In this document: piece after piece, positions 3,367 through 63,990 of the stretch | Numbering within the stretch: position 1 is the stretch's first letter | Layout of the letters: every line of letters starts with the position of its first letter | Assembly (NCBI GenBank): GCA_018814405.1 | Contig: JAHIZO010000004.1 | Location: 186,001 to 250,000, forward strand | From: Gammaproteobacteria bacterium | GTDB lineage: Bacteria > Pseudomonadota > Gammaproteobacteria > Burkholderiales > Gallionellaceae | DNA length: 64,000 nt | Direction: 5' to 3' | Made by a program: the position numbers and the translations under genes | The notes under the pieces: generated by a model | Database searches by the model: none | The model's input: the letters and a program-made list of their open reading frames with translations, nothing else | What the model was told of the DNA's origin: nothing

Positions 3367-5310
3367 TCAGTGCGCTTGCGCCTTCAGGCTGGCGACCAAT
3401 TTGGACAGGTTCACCGGTTTGTGCAGGATCGGCCAGTCGCACTCGACCGCATTCCTGATGAAGCTGCTTGAGGTGTCGCCGGTCATCAGCACGGCCCTGA
3501 TTGGTTTTGCCAGCTGCAGCCGCAACTGGTTCAAGAACTGGATGCCGTTGAGCTTTCCCGCCAGCATGAAATCCACGATGAAATAATCTGCGCGTTGGGC
3601 ATCGGTATCGAGGAGTGCGTCTTCCGCCCTGGCGAAACAGTGCACTTCCCCGCCCAGACTTTCCAGTATCCCCTTAAGCGCTTCCGCAACAAGCCCCTCA
3701 TCCTCTATCACGAAGAAATGCTTGCCACTGGCAAACGATTCATCGCTGCTGATATTTTCGGAAGGAGGTATCTCGACATGGGAGCTTACGACAACCGAGG
3801 CACCTGTCAGCGGCAGGCTGAATTCAAAGACAGATCCTCGCTCTGGGATAGAACGGCAGGTGATCGCGCCATCGAACAAGGCCAAGGCTCGCTTGGCGAT
3901 GGACAATCCCAGACCAACTCCGCTATTTCTGTCGCGTTGCGGGTTGTTGACTTGATAGAACTCGTCAAAGATATGCTCCAACTGGTCGTGTGGTATGCCA
4001 ACACCGGTGTCCCATATCTGGAACACTATATTGCCGCCGCGCTTTCGAGCACCGATCAGGACATTCCCTGCCGGCGTGAATTTGATCGCATTGGAAACAA
4101 GATTCATCAGTACGGATTTGAGTAGATCAAAATCAGCGCGAACCAGGAACGGTTCTGCAGTCGGGAAGAACAACCTAAAACCTAATCCTTTGTCACGTGC
4201 CAGCGGCTCAAAGCTCTGCTCCAACCATGAGAATATTTCGGTGATTCTGATCGGAGAGAAGACAGGCTTGATCATTCCGGCATCCAGTTTGGATACATTG
4301 AGCAGGGCATCCAATAGCTCATTGAAGTTGGACATGGTTTGATCCAGACGCTGGATGAGCTGTTCCTGCGCTGTCGTGGGTTTGGAAAGTCTGAGTGCAT
4401 CGATGAAGAGATTGGCTGCGGCCAGTGGCTGCCGCAGATCGTGACTTGCGGCTGCAAGGAAGCGGGACTTGGCCAGTTCCTTCTGCTCCAGTTTGCGCAT
4501 CAAATCCGCGAGTGCGTCTTCCGATTTTTTTCGCTGGGTGATGTCTTCTCCCACCGCCTGAAATCCGGTCAACTTGCCATGGGTGTCGAAGAGCGCGCGG
4601 TTGGTCCATTGATGATAGATATGTTCACCGTCCGCTGTCTGGTAATGCTGCAGGTGTGTTTCGATCGGATCTTTCGGTGAGAGCGAGTCCAGCCGCGCAC
4701 GTACCATTTTCCGGTCGTCTTCGGACAGGAATTCAAAGAAGTTCATGCCGACCAGTTTTCCCGCCGCGATATTTGCCGATTTGGCGATAGCGGCATTGGC
4801 ATAGGTCAGGGTGCCGGCCGGCAGGAAGGTCACGACAAAAAGCGGCATGTCTTCAGCCAGACGACGGAAATGTTCTTTGCCTTCATACAGGGTCTGCTCG
4901 GTCAGTTTTCGCGCGGTGATGTCTTCGAAGATGGTGACGAAACAATCCTTGTCGGGCGAAAATACATTGATCAGAAAGTGTTTCCGCAACGGCGGAAAAT
5001 ACTGCTCGAACTTTGCCGGTTGCTGTGTTTGCGCCACTCTGGAATAGATGTCCAGAAATGGAGCTTCGCCCGAACCATAGGCTGCAGAGGCTAACTTTCC
5101 CTTGACTGTTTCCTTTGGCAAACCTGTCTGACGCTCAAATGCATCGTTCACATCGAGGATCAGGTAATCAATGGCCTTCCCGTCGGCATCATTAACCAAT
5201 TGATGGATCGCCATGCCTTCCGACATGGCGGCAAATGACGCCCGCAACAACCCGTCCTTGAGCAAGGGGTCAGCATACGTCTTTGGAGTGTGGTGTTCAT
5301 CTGAAGCCAT
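3367..5310 (-). CDS. Soluble hybrid sensor histidine kinase (PAS-PAS-HisKA-HATPase-REC)
   Basis: 647 residues with no membrane segment or signal peptide, so a cytoplasmic sensor. Two PAS-like domains lie near residues 20-140 and 145-265. The HisKA box is ASHDLRQPLAAAN with the phosphoacceptor His near residue 290. The ATPase domain shows N-box VSNAIKFTPAG, DTGVGIP and VGLGLSIAKR (about 390-505). A receiver is fused at the C-terminus (about 530-645) with the acceptor Asp in YFIVDFML and a Lys in ILHKPV. No response regulator sits beside it. It is convergent with dsbB, ending 7 bases away. The ligand cannot be told from sequence. Confidence 0.88.
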   Translation of the reverse strand: MASDEHHTPKTYADPLLKDGLLRASFAAMSEGMAIHQLVNDADGKAIDYLILDVNDAFERQTGLPKETVKGKLASAAYGSGEAPFLDIYSRVAQTQQPAKFEQYFPPLRKHFLINVFSPDKDCFVTIFEDITARKLTEQTLYEGKEHFRRLAEDMPLFVVTFLPAGTLTYANAAIAKSANIAAGKLVGMNFFEFLSEDDRKMVRARLDSLSPKDPIETHLQHYQTADGEHIYHQWTNRALFDTHGKLTGFQAVGEDITQRKKSEDALADLMRKLEQKELAKSRFLAAASHDLRQPLAAANLFIDALRLSKPTTAQEQLIQRLDQTMSNFNELLDALLNVSKLDAGMIKPVFSPIRITEIFSWLEQSFEPLARDKGLGFRLFFPTAEPFLVRADFDLLKSVLMNLVSNAIKFTPAGNVLIGARKRGGNIVFQIWDTGVGIPHDQLEHIFDEFYQVNNPQRDRNSGVGLGLSIAKRALALFDGAITCRSIPERGSVFEFSLPLTGASVVVSSHVEIPPSENISSDESFASGKHFFVIEDEGLVAEALKGILESLGGEVHCFARAEDALLDTDAQRADYFIVDFMLAGKLNGIQFLNQLRLQLAKPIRAVLMTGDTSSSFIRNAVECDWPILHKPVNLSKLVASLKAQAH

Positions 5311-58730: not shown

Positions 58731-58777
58731 TATTGGACCAAAGACCAATATCCACGGGCATGCGATTTCGCTAGCAT
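58731..58777 (+). promoter_or_regulatory. Palindrome plus TAGCAT promoter motif, copy 1
   Basis: TATTGGACCAAAGACCAAT (58731-58749), containing ATTGG...CCAAT inverted arms, is followed after exactly 22 bases by TAGCAT (58772-58777). The same arrangement recurs at 63944. If TAGCAT is the -10 box, the palindrome centre falls near -43.5, the place for an activator overlapping a weak -35. It serves the HD-GYP gene at 58857; the gap 58612-58856 shows nothing else. Confidence 0.7.
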
Positions 58778-58856
58778 CCATCGGTTAAAAAATCACCTTC
58801 ATCTTCGCTGTAGATGGGTGGGCTTTACCTTCGAACTGGAAGCTGTCCCGGTAATA

Positions 58857-60086
58857 ATGGCCTCGTATAACGTCAATCTGCACGAAGTGGTGTATTCGCT
58901 CTCCAATGCCCTGGATCTTGTGGGGGTCAGTCATATCCATCACGGGAAGCGGGTGGCATATATGGCGACCGAGGTGGGCAAGCAGCTCGGTTGGAACGGC
59001 CCCATGATGGACGATCTGTTTCAGAGTGCCATCCTGCATGACATCGGCGTGTCCAAGACACAGGTGCACAAACATCTGGCTGAACTGGAATGGGAGTTGG
59101 AGAAGGATCACTGCATCGTCGGTCATGATCTGCTACAGGGATGCTCGCTGCTCTCTCATCTGTCGGGGAACATCCTGTATCACCATTCGCACTGGGAGGT
59201 GCTGGAAAGACTAGAGCTGGATGATTCGACCAAATTGATCGCGAACTGTATCTATCTGGTCGACCGTGTCGATGTGCAAACGCTCAGGGAGATGGCCGGT
59301 GGGCAAGATATCCTGCTGGGGAAAGACAGGATATGGGAGATGGTGCGGAAGAATTCAGGCGACTGGTTCTATCCGGGCTTGGTCGAGGCCTTCATGGAAG
59401 TCTCCAAGTCGGATGCTTTCTGGTTCCGTCTTGAACGGGAGCATGTGAACGGCTATCTGTCGACCTGGCTTTCACATTCGGGAGAGAAGGCGGTCTCATT
59501 TACGGAATTGAAGAAAGTCGTCGAGATATTCTCCTATGTTGTCGATGCCAAAAGCAGTTTCACCAAGGAGCATTCCGAGGGTGTGGCGATGCTTGCCCAT
59601 CATCTGGGTAGGGAGTTCGCTTTGTCGGAAGAGAGTTGCGAGCTGCTGGAATTGGCCGGGTTGTTGCACGACATCGGCAAACTGAGAGTGCCGGACGAGT
59701 TGCTGGAAAAAACGGGGAGTTTGAGTGAGACCGAGTACTGCGTCATGCATCGTCATAGTTTTGACACCTATGACATCCTGAAGAACATCAGGGGCATGGA
59801 GCAGGTGGCGACTTGGGCGGCGCAGCATCATGAGCGCGTCGATGGCTCGGGTTATCCGTATATGTCCGGTGAGCACGAGATATCGATAGAAGCCCGGATA
59901 CTGGCTGTTGCAGATGTCTTTCAGGCTTTGGCACAGCGGCGCCCGTATCGGGAGGCGCTGCCGCCAGAGAAGATATTGAAGATACTGCAATTGGAAGCAG
60001 ACAGCGGGAAGCTAGACAGGGTGGTGGTGGCGAAAGTGGAGAAGAACCTTCAGCATTGTTGGGAGACATCGCTGTTGATGAAATGA
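58857..60086 (+). CDS. Two-HD-domain protein with C-terminal HD-GYP
   Basis: 409 residues from the ATG at 58857; an in-frame GTG at 58818 is possible. The first HD domain has AILHDIGVSKTQ near residue 60 but no GYP. The second (about 255-400) has LLHDIGKLRVPDELLEKTG near 270 and HHERVDGSGYPY near 323, a full HD-GYP motif, so c-di-GMP hydrolysis is likely. No membrane segment. It is preceded by promoter motif copy 1 and followed after 30 bases by the macro-domain gene. Confidence 0.9.
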   Translation: MASYNVNLHEVVYSLSNALDLVGVSHIHHGKRVAYMATEVGKQLGWNGPMMDDLFQSAILHDIGVSKTQVHKHLAELEWELEKDHCIVGHDLLQGCSLLSHLSGNILYHHSHWEVLERLELDDSTKLIANCIYLVDRVDVQTLREMAGGQDILLGKDRIWEMVRKNSGDWFYPGLVEAFMEVSKSDAFWFRLEREHVNGYLSTWLSHSGEKAVSFTELKKVVEIFSYVVDAKSSFTKEHSEGVAMLAHHLGREFALSEESCELLELAGLLHDIGKLRVPDELLEKTGSLSETEYCVMHRHSFDTYDILKNIRGMEQVATWAAQHHERVDGSGYPYMSGEHEISIEARILAVADVFQALAQRRPYREALPPEKILKILQLEADSGKLDRVVVAKVEKNLQHCWETSLLMK

Positions 60087-60116
60087 GTTTGGCTGGATTC
60101 GATGCGGGGGAAAGAA

Positions 60117-60605
60117 ATGATCTATGAATTGGACGGGGATGTTTTGCGCACGGGTGCGCAGGTCATCGCGCACGGTGTCTCGCCTAATGATGACTTCCAT
60201 CAGGGGCTGGCGTTGCAATTACGCGAAGGCATGCCGGAGATGTACAAGGATTTTCGTCATCATTGCAAGACCATGCATCCCAAGCCGGGTAGTCTGATGA
60301 CTTGGAAGTTCGGCGAGGGCCGCCAGTTGGTCCATTTGTTCACCCAATCTTCGGCATATGACCACGGAAGCAAACCGGGGCGCGCAACACTCAGCCACGT
60401 CAATCACGCTTTGCATGCACTGCGCAATCTGATCCTGAAAGATGGGGGCACAAGCATCGCTATGCCTAAGCTGGCTTGTGGTGTTGGTGGGCTGGATTGG
60501 CAGGATGTGCAGCCGCTGGTCGCGAAGCAACTGGGGGATCTGGGCATCCCGGTGTACGTCTATGTGAACTATCAAAAGAACATAAAGGCCATAGAGCCTG
60601 CTTAA
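60117..60605 (+). CDS. Macro-domain (ADP-ribose-binding) protein
   Basis: 162 residues from the ATG at 60117 after GGGGGAAAGAA; an ATG at 60102 would add five residues. The ADP-ribose loop appears as VIAHGVSPNDDFHQGLALQL and the second loop as SIAMPKLACGVGGLDW, with a PGSLMTWKF strand between. The type resembles Poa1/TARG1/DarG-like macro domains that remove ADP-ribose adducts. It sits between an HD-GYP gene and a FixJ-like regulator, an unusual place for this fold. Substrate unknown. Confidence 0.87.
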   Translation: MIYELDGDVLRTGAQVIAHGVSPNDDFHQGLALQLREGMPEMYKDFRHHCKTMHPKPGSLMTWKFGEGRQLVHLFTQSSAYDHGSKPGRATLSHVNHALHALRNLILKDGGTSIAMPKLACGVGGLDWQDVQPLVAKQLGDLGIPVYVYVNYQKNIKAIEPA

Positions 60606-60637
60606 GAGTAATCTAAGTTCCCTGGAGGGGAGTTAAA

Positions 60638-61330
60638 GTGGTTAATGTCGGATCAGAGAAGACAGTCGTCGTGATAGACGATGATGTCGCAACTTTCAAA
60701 GGTATCTCTCGCATCGCCAGGCAGGCGGGCTTCAATACGGAAGCCTTTCCTGATTGTCTGGATTTCTCGCGGTGGCTGGACGCGCATGCTGCTGATGCTT
60801 CCGTTGCGTCCCGTTCGTATTGCCTGGTGATCGATGTCAAATCCCTGCTGCCGGATGCTGAATGGCATTCGAATCCTCACATCCGTTCGATCCCCAAGTT
60901 GTGTGTTGGCACGCCTGTCGCGATCTCCACCATGGGGCAGGTGATGAATGGATTTGAATGCGAATTCATCAGAAAGCCGTTCACGCTGGATGCCATACAG
61001 ATGCATATCGAAGATGCTTTGGCGCGTTATGCCAGCAATGCCAGTGAGACGTTTGATAACAAGCGCATTATTGAGATGTTCGCACTGTTGACCAAACGCG
61101 AGCATGAAGTGGCGGCACTGGTTGGCAGTGGCAGCTCCAACCTCGATATCGCCGCCGTGCTCGGCATCACGCTGAAGACCGTCAAAGCGCATCGTGCGAA
61201 AGTGATGGAGAAGACTGCGGCCAGTACCATCGCCGATTTCGTTCGGAAATACGAGCGCTACAGGCAGGCAGTGCTCAAGACTGAGGGCGCCTCGCTTATG
61301 CGGTCAGGAAAACACAAGGTGGTGTCATGA
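60638..61330 (+). CDS. FixJ/NarL-like response regulator with LuxR helix-turn-helix
   Basis: 230 residues from a GTG at 60638 preceded by GGAGGGG. The receiver has VIDDD at residues 13-17, Asp66 in CLVIDVKS and Lys113 in FIRKPF; the acceptor Asp is further from the N-terminus than usual, so some helices are longer. The GerE-type helix-turn-helix (about 150-210) reads LTKREHEVAALVGSGSSNLDIAAVLGITLKTVKAHR. It is the only transcription factor in the hub, and overlaps the next gene by 4 bases. It could be the activator of the palindrome motif, which is a guess. Confidence 0.88.
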   Translation: MVNVGSEKTVVVIDDDVATFKGISRIARQAGFNTEAFPDCLDFSRWLDAHAADASVASRSYCLVIDVKSLLPDAEWHSNPHIRSIPKLCVGTPVAISTMGQVMNGFECEFIRKPFTLDAIQMHIEDALARYASNASETFDNKRIIEMFALLTKREHEVAALVGSGSSNLDIAAVLGITLKTVKAHRAKVMEKTAASTIADFVRKYERYRQAVLKTEGASLMRSGKHKVVS

Positions 61331-62682
61331 AACAAGCTGCCTTCCCGAGTGTGGGTTCGATCGCACAGAAAACCATCCTGCGCTGCGATCCGGCTATCAG
61401 TGCGAGAGAAGCTGCCTTGTTGATGGAAAAGAACAATGTCAGCAGTGTCGTGCTTGAGATGGGTGGGAAGCTTCACATCTTCACCGTGGAAGACCTGCTG
61501 AACTTTATTCATGGCGAGGGAGCTTACAGCACACCGCTATCCGATCTGTCGATCAGGCGGCTGGATTGCATCTCCGATAATGAGAAACTACTGGTGGTGC
61601 TGGAGCATTTGGAGAGCACCGGTTCTTCCCACCTTGGGGTGTTGGATGCCGATGACAGATTGATCGGCATCGTGACGCGCACCGACATCCTGACATCTAT
61701 CGATCCTGCCATATTGCTGGAAAGAAAGAAGATAGGGGATATGATCATCAGGAGCGAGCCGGTCATGTTCACGGCAGACTGGATACTCGAAGATGTCATG
61801 CATCACTTCCGCAGGGCGGAGGATGCGATCATCGTGGTCGATGAGGGCAAGCCCATCGGCATCGTGACCACCAAAGATGTATTCGGTGTCCTCTCTTCTG
61901 GGGACGATGCTGGCAAGCCCCTTTCTGAATACATGGCGACGCCTGTCATCACCTCGCCGCGCGCAGCTTCGATCAACGAGGCCATGTTGCAACTGAAGCA
62001 ATATCGCATCAAGCGGGCTATCGTGGTCGATGAGGGCGGGCAACTGGCCGGCGTCATATCGCAGAGCGAACTCATCAGCTATGCATACGGCGCATGGATA
62101 AACATCCTGAAGAACCATTCCTCTGAATTGCATGAGCTGGTGGATATGCTGGAAGAGAAAGCGCGTAGCCTTGAGCATCTATCTGTGACCGACGTACTGA
62201 CTGGGCTGGGCAACCGGCGGCTGTTGCAGATCAGGATGGACGAGGAAAAGGAGCGCGTCCGGCGTTATGGTGCAGTGCCATTCTCGTTGGTGATACTGGA
62301 TATCGATTTCTTCAAGCAGATCAACGACACACATGGACACTTGGTCGGTGATGCGGTGTTGAAGCTGCTAAGCACAGAGATCAACCGTGCCATACGCAAG
62401 ATCGATACCGCGGTACGTTGGGGCGGCGAAGAATTCGCCATCATGCTCGGCAATACACCGTTGTCGGCAGCAGCGGGTTTCTGTGAAAGACTGCGTGCAG
62501 CTGTCGAACGCATGGAACTGGTGAATGGAATCCAGCTGACGATCAGTTTGGGGATATCCGAGTATGTACCAAACGAGGAGGATTTCACTCTGGTGGAGCG
62601 TGCCGACCGGGCTTTGTATAGCGCGAAACGCAAAGGGCGGAACAGGGTGGAGGTGGAGCAGGCGCTCAAACTCTCGTCGTAA
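61327..62682 (+). CDS. Four-CBS-domain diguanylate cyclase
   Basis: 451 residues. Two CBS pairs fill about residues 10-125 and 140-255, for example GIVTRTDILT and GIVTTKDVFG, followed by a coiled linker and a GGDEF domain (287-445) with WGGEEFAIML near 364 and inhibitory RKID. CBS pairs usually bind adenine nucleotides or SAM, so the cyclase may read cellular energy state. No membrane segment. The ATG overlaps the regulator stop as ATGA, so the two are translationally coupled. Confidence 0.92.
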   Translation: MKQAAFPSVGSIAQKTILRCDPAISAREAALLMEKNNVSSVVLEMGGKLHIFTVEDLLNFIHGEGAYSTPLSDLSIRRLDCISDNEKLLVVLEHLESTGSSHLGVLDADDRLIGIVTRTDILTSIDPAILLERKKIGDMIIRSEPVMFTADWILEDVMHHFRRAEDAIIVVDEGKPIGIVTTKDVFGVLSSGDDAGKPLSEYMATPVITSPRAASINEAMLQLKQYRIKRAIVVDEGGQLAGVISQSELISYAYGAWINILKNHSSELHELVDMLEEKARSLEHLSVTDVLTGLGNRRLLQIRMDEEKERVRRYGAVPFSLVILDIDFFKQINDTHGHLVGDAVLKLLSTEINRAIRKIDTAVRWGGEEFAIMLGNTPLSAAAGFCERLRAAVERMELVNGIQLTISLGISEYVPNEEDFTLVERADRALYSAKRKGRNRVEVEQALKLSS

Positions 62683-62734
62683 CGCAACTCTGTTCGTCCT
62701 CGTTCTGCTGGGGGCGAGTGTCACGGCGCATGTT

Positions 62735-63871
62735 CTAGGCTTCGTCCTTGTAACGCATCTGGATATCAGAGATCGCCTGCGGGTTGTCGAGCAGTATCTC
62801 CACACACCTTCTGTCCAGTTTCCATTTCGATAGCGCATTGAGTTCATCGTACGCCGCGGCATTGCTCCAGGCAGGTTTGTAGCAGCGCTTCGATGTCAGT
62901 GCATCGAAAACATCAGCCGCCGCGATGATGCGCGCTTCAAGCGGGATGTCCTCACCTTTCAGTCCGCAAGGGTAGCCAGTCCCGTCGCAGTTCTCATGAT
63001 GGGACTCGGCGATGTTGGCCATCACCGGGGCTAGGCTGGAATTGCCCAGATTGAAGTTCTTCAGCATGGTGTCGATGATCTGGCGGCCTTTGGTGGTGTG
63101 TGTCTGCATCAACTTGAACTCGTCTTGCGTGAGCTTTCCCGCTTTGAGCAGAATGTGGTCTGGTATCGCTATCTTGCCGATGTCGTGCATCGGGGCAGCC
63201 CACAGGATTGACTCGGTGAATTCGTCGTTCAACCCTTGATCACTGGCGATCTCATTGGCTATCAATCTGGAAAAATGCGACATGCGTTCGAGATGGGCAC
63301 CGGTTTCCGGATCCCTGTAACTGGAGAAGCTGGTCGCCGTTCTGAGTGCACCGTGCATCGTCTGCACCGTATTGAGTTCAAGATCGACCAACAGTGAGAT
63401 CATTCTTGCGATCATGTCCAGATTGGCAAGGGTGCTTTCCTGAAGCACATTCGGCTGTCGCGAGTTGAAGAAGATGAAACCGGTCAGTTGTTCGTTCGCA
63501 TACATGGGGATGGTGTAGCTGGCGCGAAAGCCGTGATCCACGATCCGTTTGCTGTGTGTTTGCTCGCTGTCCGAGAATACGGAAAGGTCATTGATGATTC
63601 TGGGTCTGCCGCTCAGAAATATTTGATGCAGCGAGGGCGTGTCGGCCAGTTTTACCTGATAGCCAGGAAGTGGATTGCCATCGTCCGTACTATGGGCAAG
63701 GGTCTTGAGCAGATCGAGGGCCGGATCGTAGATGGCGACCGAGATGCGGTGGATGAACTCACAGCAATTGCGGGTCGCATCATGGATGGCAAGGATCTTT
63801 TCCGAAAGGGAACAGTTGTGGTTCAGCTGAGCCAGCATGTCTGTTCGATTGAACTCTATCCCTTCACCCAT
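62735..63871 (-). CDS. GAF-HD-GYP phosphodiesterase
   Basis: 378 residues from the ATG at 63871, six bases after GGAGG; a GTG at 63883 is less likely. A GAF domain (about 20-165, SVAIYDPALDLLKTLAHS) precedes HD-GYP with APMHDIGKIAIPDHIL near residue 225 and SHHENCDGTGYPCGL near 295. Both metal and GYP motifs are complete, so c-di-GMP hydrolysis is expected. It converges on the CBS-GGDEF gene, and its promoter side faces promoter motif copy 2 at the window edge. Confidence 0.92.
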   Translation of the reverse strand: MGEGIEFNRTDMLAQLNHNCSLSEKILAIHDATRNCCEFIHRISVAIYDPALDLLKTLAHSTDDGNPLPGYQVKLADTPSLHQIFLSGRPRIINDLSVFSDSEQTHSKRIVDHGFRASYTIPMYANEQLTGFIFFNSRQPNVLQESTLANLDMIARMISLLVDLELNTVQTMHGALRTATSFSSYRDPETGAHLERMSHFSRLIANEIASDQGLNDEFTESILWAAPMHDIGKIAIPDHILLKAGKLTQDEFKLMQTHTTKGRQIIDTMLKNFNLGNSSLAPVMANIAESHHENCDGTGYPCGLKGEDIPLEARIIAAADVFDALTSKRCYKPAWSNAAAYDELNALSKWKLDRRCVEILLDNPQAISDIQMRYKDEA

Positions 63872-63943
63872 CCTATCCTCCACTTTATATGTATCAAGAC
63901 TTCAAATTCCGGAGCCTTTTTGTCAGGAATTGAAGTGCGTGTC

Positions 63944-63990
63944 TATTGGACCAAAGGCCAATGTGCAATATTGGGCTGTTCCGTTAGCAT
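63944..63990 (+). promoter_or_regulatory. Palindrome plus TAGCAT promoter motif, copy 2
   Basis: TATTGGACCAAAGGCCAAT (63944-63962) differs from copy 1 by one base and is followed after the same 22 bases by TAGCAT (63985-63990). It is in the same orientation, so the controlled gene should start just beyond the right edge on the plus strand. It lies in the divergent gap upstream of the GAF-HD-GYP gene; nothing else was recognised in 63872-64000. Confidence 0.7.

Follow-up and report, generated by a model that had tools for sequence, protein, structure and literature searches.

Among described transcription factors, StyR of Pseudomonas fluorescens and FixJ resemble in protein class and fold the putative regulator that is the subject of this report. 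Phosphorylated StyR is reported to activate transcription from a site at about -40 (PMC2442086), to be set beside a predicted centre of -43.5 here, and the likeness between the two systems lies in the protein and in the position of its site. StyR is phosphorylated by the kinase StyS, whereas no such kinase is seen beside the regulator considered here and members of its family do not consistently keep the phosphorylation Asp. The core GGnC-N4-GnCC of the operators described below is shared by the box of DevR; nothing here corresponds to the known size of the DevR regulon or to the DevR kinases. This core also fits the operator consensus reported for OsdR, AGGGCCGATCGGCCCT (PMC5069765), although DevR/DosR and OsdR are dormancy regulators and the present protein is closer to StyR and FixJ. 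A further precedent is VpsT of Vibrio cholerae, a LuxR/FixJ-class protein that acts through c-di-GMP, activates a diguanylate cyclase operon in a positive c-di-GMP loop, and is reported to use a degenerate 10-bp box at 23 loci (PMC8754643). VpsT is a distant match to our regulator, confined to the DNA-binding domain (E 2.3e-11), and agrees poorly over the whole fold (TM 0.39). No published description of the regulator family was found among the matches listed in our literature search; the parts of the circuit appear familiar, and the regulator and its target set appear undescribed.

We analyzed a stretch of 64,000 nucleotides from a Gallionellaceae genome (the window), near the end of which two palindromes occur 5.2 kb apart. 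Our reading, to which we give a probability of roughly 0.8, is that both palindromes serve as operators for a FixJ/StyR-type regulator, the product of the gene at 60638, which would activate its own operon (HD-GYP, macro, regulator, and CBS-GGDEF genes) together with the polyphosphate kinase gene ppk2.

Operators and gene neighborhood

The features concerned are as follows.

58732 to 58749, plus strand: operator 1, ATTGGACCAAAGACCAAT, an imperfect 18-bp palindrome
58772 to 58777, plus strand: predicted -10 box TAGCAT, 22 bases 3' of operator 1, a spacing fixed in orthologues
58818 to 60086, plus strand: HD-GYP protein, first gene of the regulator operon (Pfam HD_5; HHExxDGxGYP intact; start GTG 58818 or ATG 58857)
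60102 to 60605, plus strand: macro-domain protein with a DarG-like N-terminal match (Pfam Macro just above cut-off, NCBIfam DarG far below cut-off)
60638 to 61330, plus strand: FixJ/StyR-type regulator, candidate binder of both operators (Pfam GerE; family alignment; nearest solved structure StyR)
61327 to 62682, plus strand: four-CBS GGDEF diguanylate cyclase, the regulator's partner gene (GGEEF intact, with an RxxD-x5 site)
62735 to 63883, minus strand: GAF-HD-GYP protein, divergent from ppk2 (HHExxDGxGYP intact; its counterpart in genome G079 has its own site)
63945 to 63962, plus strand: operator 2, ATTGGACCAAAGGCCAAT, an imperfect 18-bp palindrome 5' of ppk2
63985 to 63990, plus strand: predicted -10 box TAGCAT of the ppk2 promoter, 22 bases 3' of operator 2
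64201 to 65394 in window coordinates, plus strand, beyond the window: ppk2 (TIGR03707 above cut-off)

The two operators are identical at 17 of 18 bases, and their palindrome is imperfect, with 6 of 9 base pairs complementary. An earlier note on this DNA had described two 18-bp sites differing at one base, each followed by a 22-base gap and TAGCAT, and every element of that description was recovered in place, the 19-mer of the note beginning at 58731, one base before operator 1. The same note had called the 22-base spacers poorly conserved; they match at only 9 of 22 positions, and the pair is therefore not a plain duplication. Of the two genes it placed behind the sites, one is the HD-GYP gene and the other, which it located beyond the window, is ppk2. 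Operator 2 thus sits between the minus-strand GAF-HD-GYP gene and plus-strand ppk2. Within the run from HD-GYP to cyclase, the genes are separated by gaps of 15 and 32 bases and then overlap by 4 bases, so that a single operon is likely.

The surroundings constitute a dense c-di-GMP neighborhood. Directly 5' of operator 1 lies a receiver-GGDEF protein (by domain scan), and between 48553 and 58611 are two large proteins of 1455 and 1191 aa, PAS-GGDEF-EAL by eye, with a substrate-binding-protein-like gene between them. The macro-domain gene, which resembles the N-terminal part of the antitoxin DarG, is found within the regulator operon in four genomes.

When the pattern of the earlier note was allowed up to three mismatches, operators 1 and 2 were its sole matches in the window, and shuffled versions of the window gave at least two matches in 7 of 100 shuffles; the palindrome alone is therefore mild evidence. 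Evidence from the window by itself is modest, and the comparative evidence is strong. We also searched the organism's own assembly (2,378,963 bases in 10 contigs). The exact 16-base core TTGGNCNNNNGNCCAA occurs at four places in the whole assembly, including both operators, and the remaining two have no TAnnnT at spacings of 15-29. At up to three mismatches to ATTGGNCNAAAGNCCAAT there are 32 strand-sites in the assembly, three of them with TAnnnT at 22; the third (contig C9, TAAGGT, three mismatches) was discarded as an extra target and taken as chance because it lies within a 451-aa coding frame. A sequence-only model built from 20 sites (R1, see below) returned from this genome just the two promoters and a partial match to operator 2 on the reverse strand; 150 of the 186 first-look candidates were scored. 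The genome thus appears to have two promoters only, with no further convincing site in the 2.38-Mb assembly.

Conservation of sites and spacing in relatives

The earlier note had held that absence of the motif elsewhere, in the genome and in relatives, would speak against a regulon. The own genome indeed has no further convincing copy, but relatives have the motif in the same geometry. Among 158 family genomes, close orthologues of the regulator (61-69% identity to the window's) occur in three, G125, G135, and G151. In all four close-form genomes, the window's own included, paired sites flank the regulator gene, and in the three relatives one site faces ppk2 and the other faces the operon. Each of the eight sites is followed after 22 bases by TAGCAT (seven sites) or TAATAT (one). 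Alignments of the relatives show site and box kept while the surroundings have diverged. The operons of G135 and G151 have no counterpart of the first HD-GYP gene, the site preceding macro, regulator, and cyclase. At ppk2, the sequence GATGTTCCGnTAGCAT is common to G125, G135, G151, and G079, and the window genome has GCTGTTCCGTTAGCAT. On the minus side of operator 2 (63883-63945), the window genome and three relatives share a conserved block, ATTCCyGAyAAAA; directed towards the divergent HD-GYP gene, it is perhaps a second, divergent promoter using operator 2.

The raw frequency of the palindrome is misleading as a measure of the regulon: a search of the 158 family genomes with ATTGGNCNNNNGNCCAAT gave a match in 36, and reversed-pattern controls occur too. 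Two palindromes in group g12 (L113, L114) were rejected, both lying inside a 1577-aa frame, as were those in G040 (L112) and G071 (L110), which are without a fitting box at 22.

More distant regulator operons allowed the spacing to be examined further. Of 14 regions that hold the regulator, the window's among them, 13 have the cyclase next to it, the exception being G133. Searching named genomes with the CBS portion of the cyclase gave 18 loci, four of them from Methylomonas and one from a Betaproteobacteria bin; Ferriphaselus sp. R-1 and Methylomonas sp. LW13 are among the named relatives with the operon. A weight matrix made from the 8 genus 18-mers, holding no box information, was applied to the 250 bases in front of each of 16 distant operons. 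For 15 of these, at most 4% of 200 shuffles, which keep base composition only, reached the score of the best match; judged by the loose form TAnnnT, the best upstream match was followed by the box at exactly 22 bases in 11 of the 16 and at 21 bases in four (all Methylomonas), two of the 15 matrix matches also having TAnnnT at another spacing. The one exception is again G133, whose regulator has no adjoining cyclase and no site upstream. The 56 strand-sites with an exact palindrome at 28 regulator-unlinked loci served as a control: TAnnnT stood at 22 in none of them and at 21 in two. Related loci share descent, and we therefore claim no formal probability for these spacing counts. As to scope, for L102 we placed the operon start at the upstream OmpR-type gene, a choice made once the site was known, and operon starts are approximate for L108, L119, L126-L128, L131, and L132; L118 (a cyclase for which no regulator was found) and L109 and L111 (homologues not adjoining a cyclase, which show no site) stood outside the 16.

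The four Methylomonas loci (L126, L127, L128, and L131, at about 5100-5160) each carry the regulator-cyclase pair with the site at 21-base spacing, and the occurrence of a mostly Gallionellaceae module in gammaproteobacterial Methylomonas suggests transfer. On a Desulfobulbaceae contig (L118), a CBS part 68% identical to that of the window cyclase lies behind an EAL-type frame; a regulator match was not found at that locus.

Model R1 was run on 24 genomes. It matched 13 of the 14 that have the regulator and one of the 10 that lack it, most of the matches being training sequences. Here "lack" denotes no profile match better than 5.5e-31, as against 2.6e-77 or better in the three regulator genomes of that search. 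The model missed G063, its match in G133 is not at the regulator, and its one match in a genome lacking an orthologous regulator is in G144 (E 0.007). Outside the training set, R1 found a new site in G079 (C2:102079, E 1.1e-4), which precedes a ppk2 with 84% identity to that of the window genome. This genome, from a second genus, has three unlinked sites, at regulator-cyclase, at receiver plus HD-GYP (the HD-GYP protein being 48% identical to the product of the gene at 62735), and at ppk2; its three unlinked targets are the same kinds of gene as lie together in the window. Further candidate targets with the exact geometry are a CZB-domain protein in G133 (L146:992-1426, E 0.032), a Cys-rich repeat protein in G144 (L144:578-2035, E 0.007), and a lipoprotein-like gene with no Pfam match in G153 (L152:1826-2383, E 0.099). 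These are tentative, since the geometry is part of R1 and about that many chance matches are expected over 24 genomes.

For ppk2 itself, we compared 31 hand-picked genomes: an orthologue of at least 73% identity is present in 8 of the 13 that have the regulator and in none of the 18 that lack it (Fisher p 1.6e-4); G155 has a 49% match. Relatives with the regulator hold nine copies of ppk2, four with the site and five without it, and we accordingly rejected ppk2 as an ancestral target.

The regulator protein

The regulator's C-terminus is a LuxR/GerE helix-turn-helix (Pfam GerE, E 7.4e-12). A Pfam scan of the protein gave no receiver domain match; the NCBIfam FixJ model aligns to residues 6-203, below cut-off, and a profile of the family (A2) aligns StyR and FixJ nearly full length. 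Among proteins of solved structure StyR is the nearest, by profile (E 1.3e-34) and by Foldseek of the predicted fold (TM 0.69), with FixJ next. Judged by the below-cut-off FixJ match, the profile alignment, and the predicted fold, the N-terminus is receiver-like.

Whether such a domain would be phosphorylated is another matter. The window regulator itself keeps both the phosphorylation Asp and the Lys, but the pair is not conserved across the family: among 14 aligned members the Asp position holds D in 7, N in 3, E in 2, A in 1, and S in 1, and the Lys position holds K in 9. By the definition given in PMC12632262, a receiver without any one of five conserved residues is a pseudo-receiver. Seven scanned proteins around the regulator included no partner histidine kinase. 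The ligand motif of VpsT-like c-di-GMP-responsive regulators, W[FLM][TS]R, was not seen by eye in the family alignment. Given the usual cyclase partner, c-di-GMP or a nucleotide is an attractive candidate for the regulator's input.

Promoter architecture and the proposed circuit

With TAGCAT taken as the -10 box, the operator would cover positions from about -52 to -35, and transcription of the operon would be expected to start near 58784. The earlier note had proposed an activator site over a weak -35 box. Comparative genomics bears out a site next to the -35 position; the box itself is no better than in shuffled sequence. Across the sites, the best -35 match averages 2.7 of 6, against 2.43 in shuffles, and reaches at least 4 in 10% versus 11%, so that no -35 box stands above chance and the spacers are near random. 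This is the layout of a class II activator-dependent promoter, with a site adjoining the -35 region, a fixed distance to -10, and a poor -35. An activator that contacts polymerase at this position would call for just this combination of constant spacing and missing -35 box. Comparative genomics likewise favors two further proposals of the note, that the two sites form one regulon and that the FixJ-like protein at 60638 is its regulator.

The circuit we propose is therefore best stated conditionally. A dimer of the regulator would bind the 18-bp site and recruit RNA polymerase to a promoter that has a -10 box and no -35 box. Site 1 would drive the operon of HD-GYP, macro, regulator, and CBS-GGDEF cyclase genes, and since operator 1 heads the operon containing the regulator, the regulator would activate itself; site 2 would drive ppk2 and perhaps the divergent HD-GYP gene. 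The self-activating regulator and its cyclase are probably the older circuit, which ppk2 and the HD-GYP genes joined in some lineages. To the reading of the earlier note, the comparison of genomes thus adds a ppk2 target, predicted autoregulation, and a wider regulator family.

Three other explanations have to be weighed. The sites could belong to a different NarL/FixJ-class regulator, with the gene at 60638 only one of its targets, since the own genome and its relatives encode further LuxR/FixJ-type proteins, G144 has a fitting site and no orthologue, and the G133 orthologue has no upstream site. Such a regulator would have to account for paired sites accompanying the close orthologue in four of four genomes, for a site at the head of the regulator operon at 15 of the 16 distant loci, and for the lack of any R1 match in 9 of 10 sampled genomes without an orthologue, and we consider it unlikely. 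Autorepression is common among bacterial regulators, and the protein might bind as proposed and yet repress a promoter activated by another factor; the -10 boxes of distant members are near consensus (TATAAT, TAGAAT), as this would allow. The site, however, lies upstream of the -35 position and covers neither the box nor the start, its spacing is fixed, and polymerase has no -35 box to use alone, all of which make repression improbable. Coincidence, or a small DNA element that is mobile or was duplicated, finds some encouragement in there being just two copies, 5.2 kb apart, in the own genome, and is scarcely credible given spacers that have diverged while site and box were kept, a pair that three relatives also have, and the occurrence of single sites in other genera.

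Activation by the regulator at 60638 is the explanation that we prefer, and several observations count against it: five of nine ppk2 copies are without a site, G133 has a regulator without site or cyclase, G144 has a site without an orthologue, the Methylomonas spacing is 21, and the own genome offers two promoters only. The sites, their fixed spacing, their conservation, and their linkage to the regulator are read directly from the sequences; binding, activation rather than repression, the transcription start, and the signal are what we infer from them.

The Gallionellaceae are known as Fe(II) oxidisers. A broader proposal, tentative and in our estimation rather doubtful, is that in Fe(II)-oxidising bacteria the module acts as a self-activating switch that needs no phosphorylation, in which a pseudo-receiver FixJ-type regulator and its constant CBS-GGDEF cyclase partner would couple adenine-nucleotide status, through the CBS domains, to c-di-GMP turnover and to polyphosphate use by PPK2, the regulator sensing c-di-GMP or another nucleotide and not a kinase. 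For the preferred reading, the analysis gives a regulator family an operator, a promoter geometry, and a list of targets that can be put to the test, and it illustrates how orthologues from several genera can bear out a distance between site and box that was first noticed by eye in two copies. For the Gallionellaceae, it would tie the synthesis and breakdown of c-di-GMP to a polyphosphate kinase.
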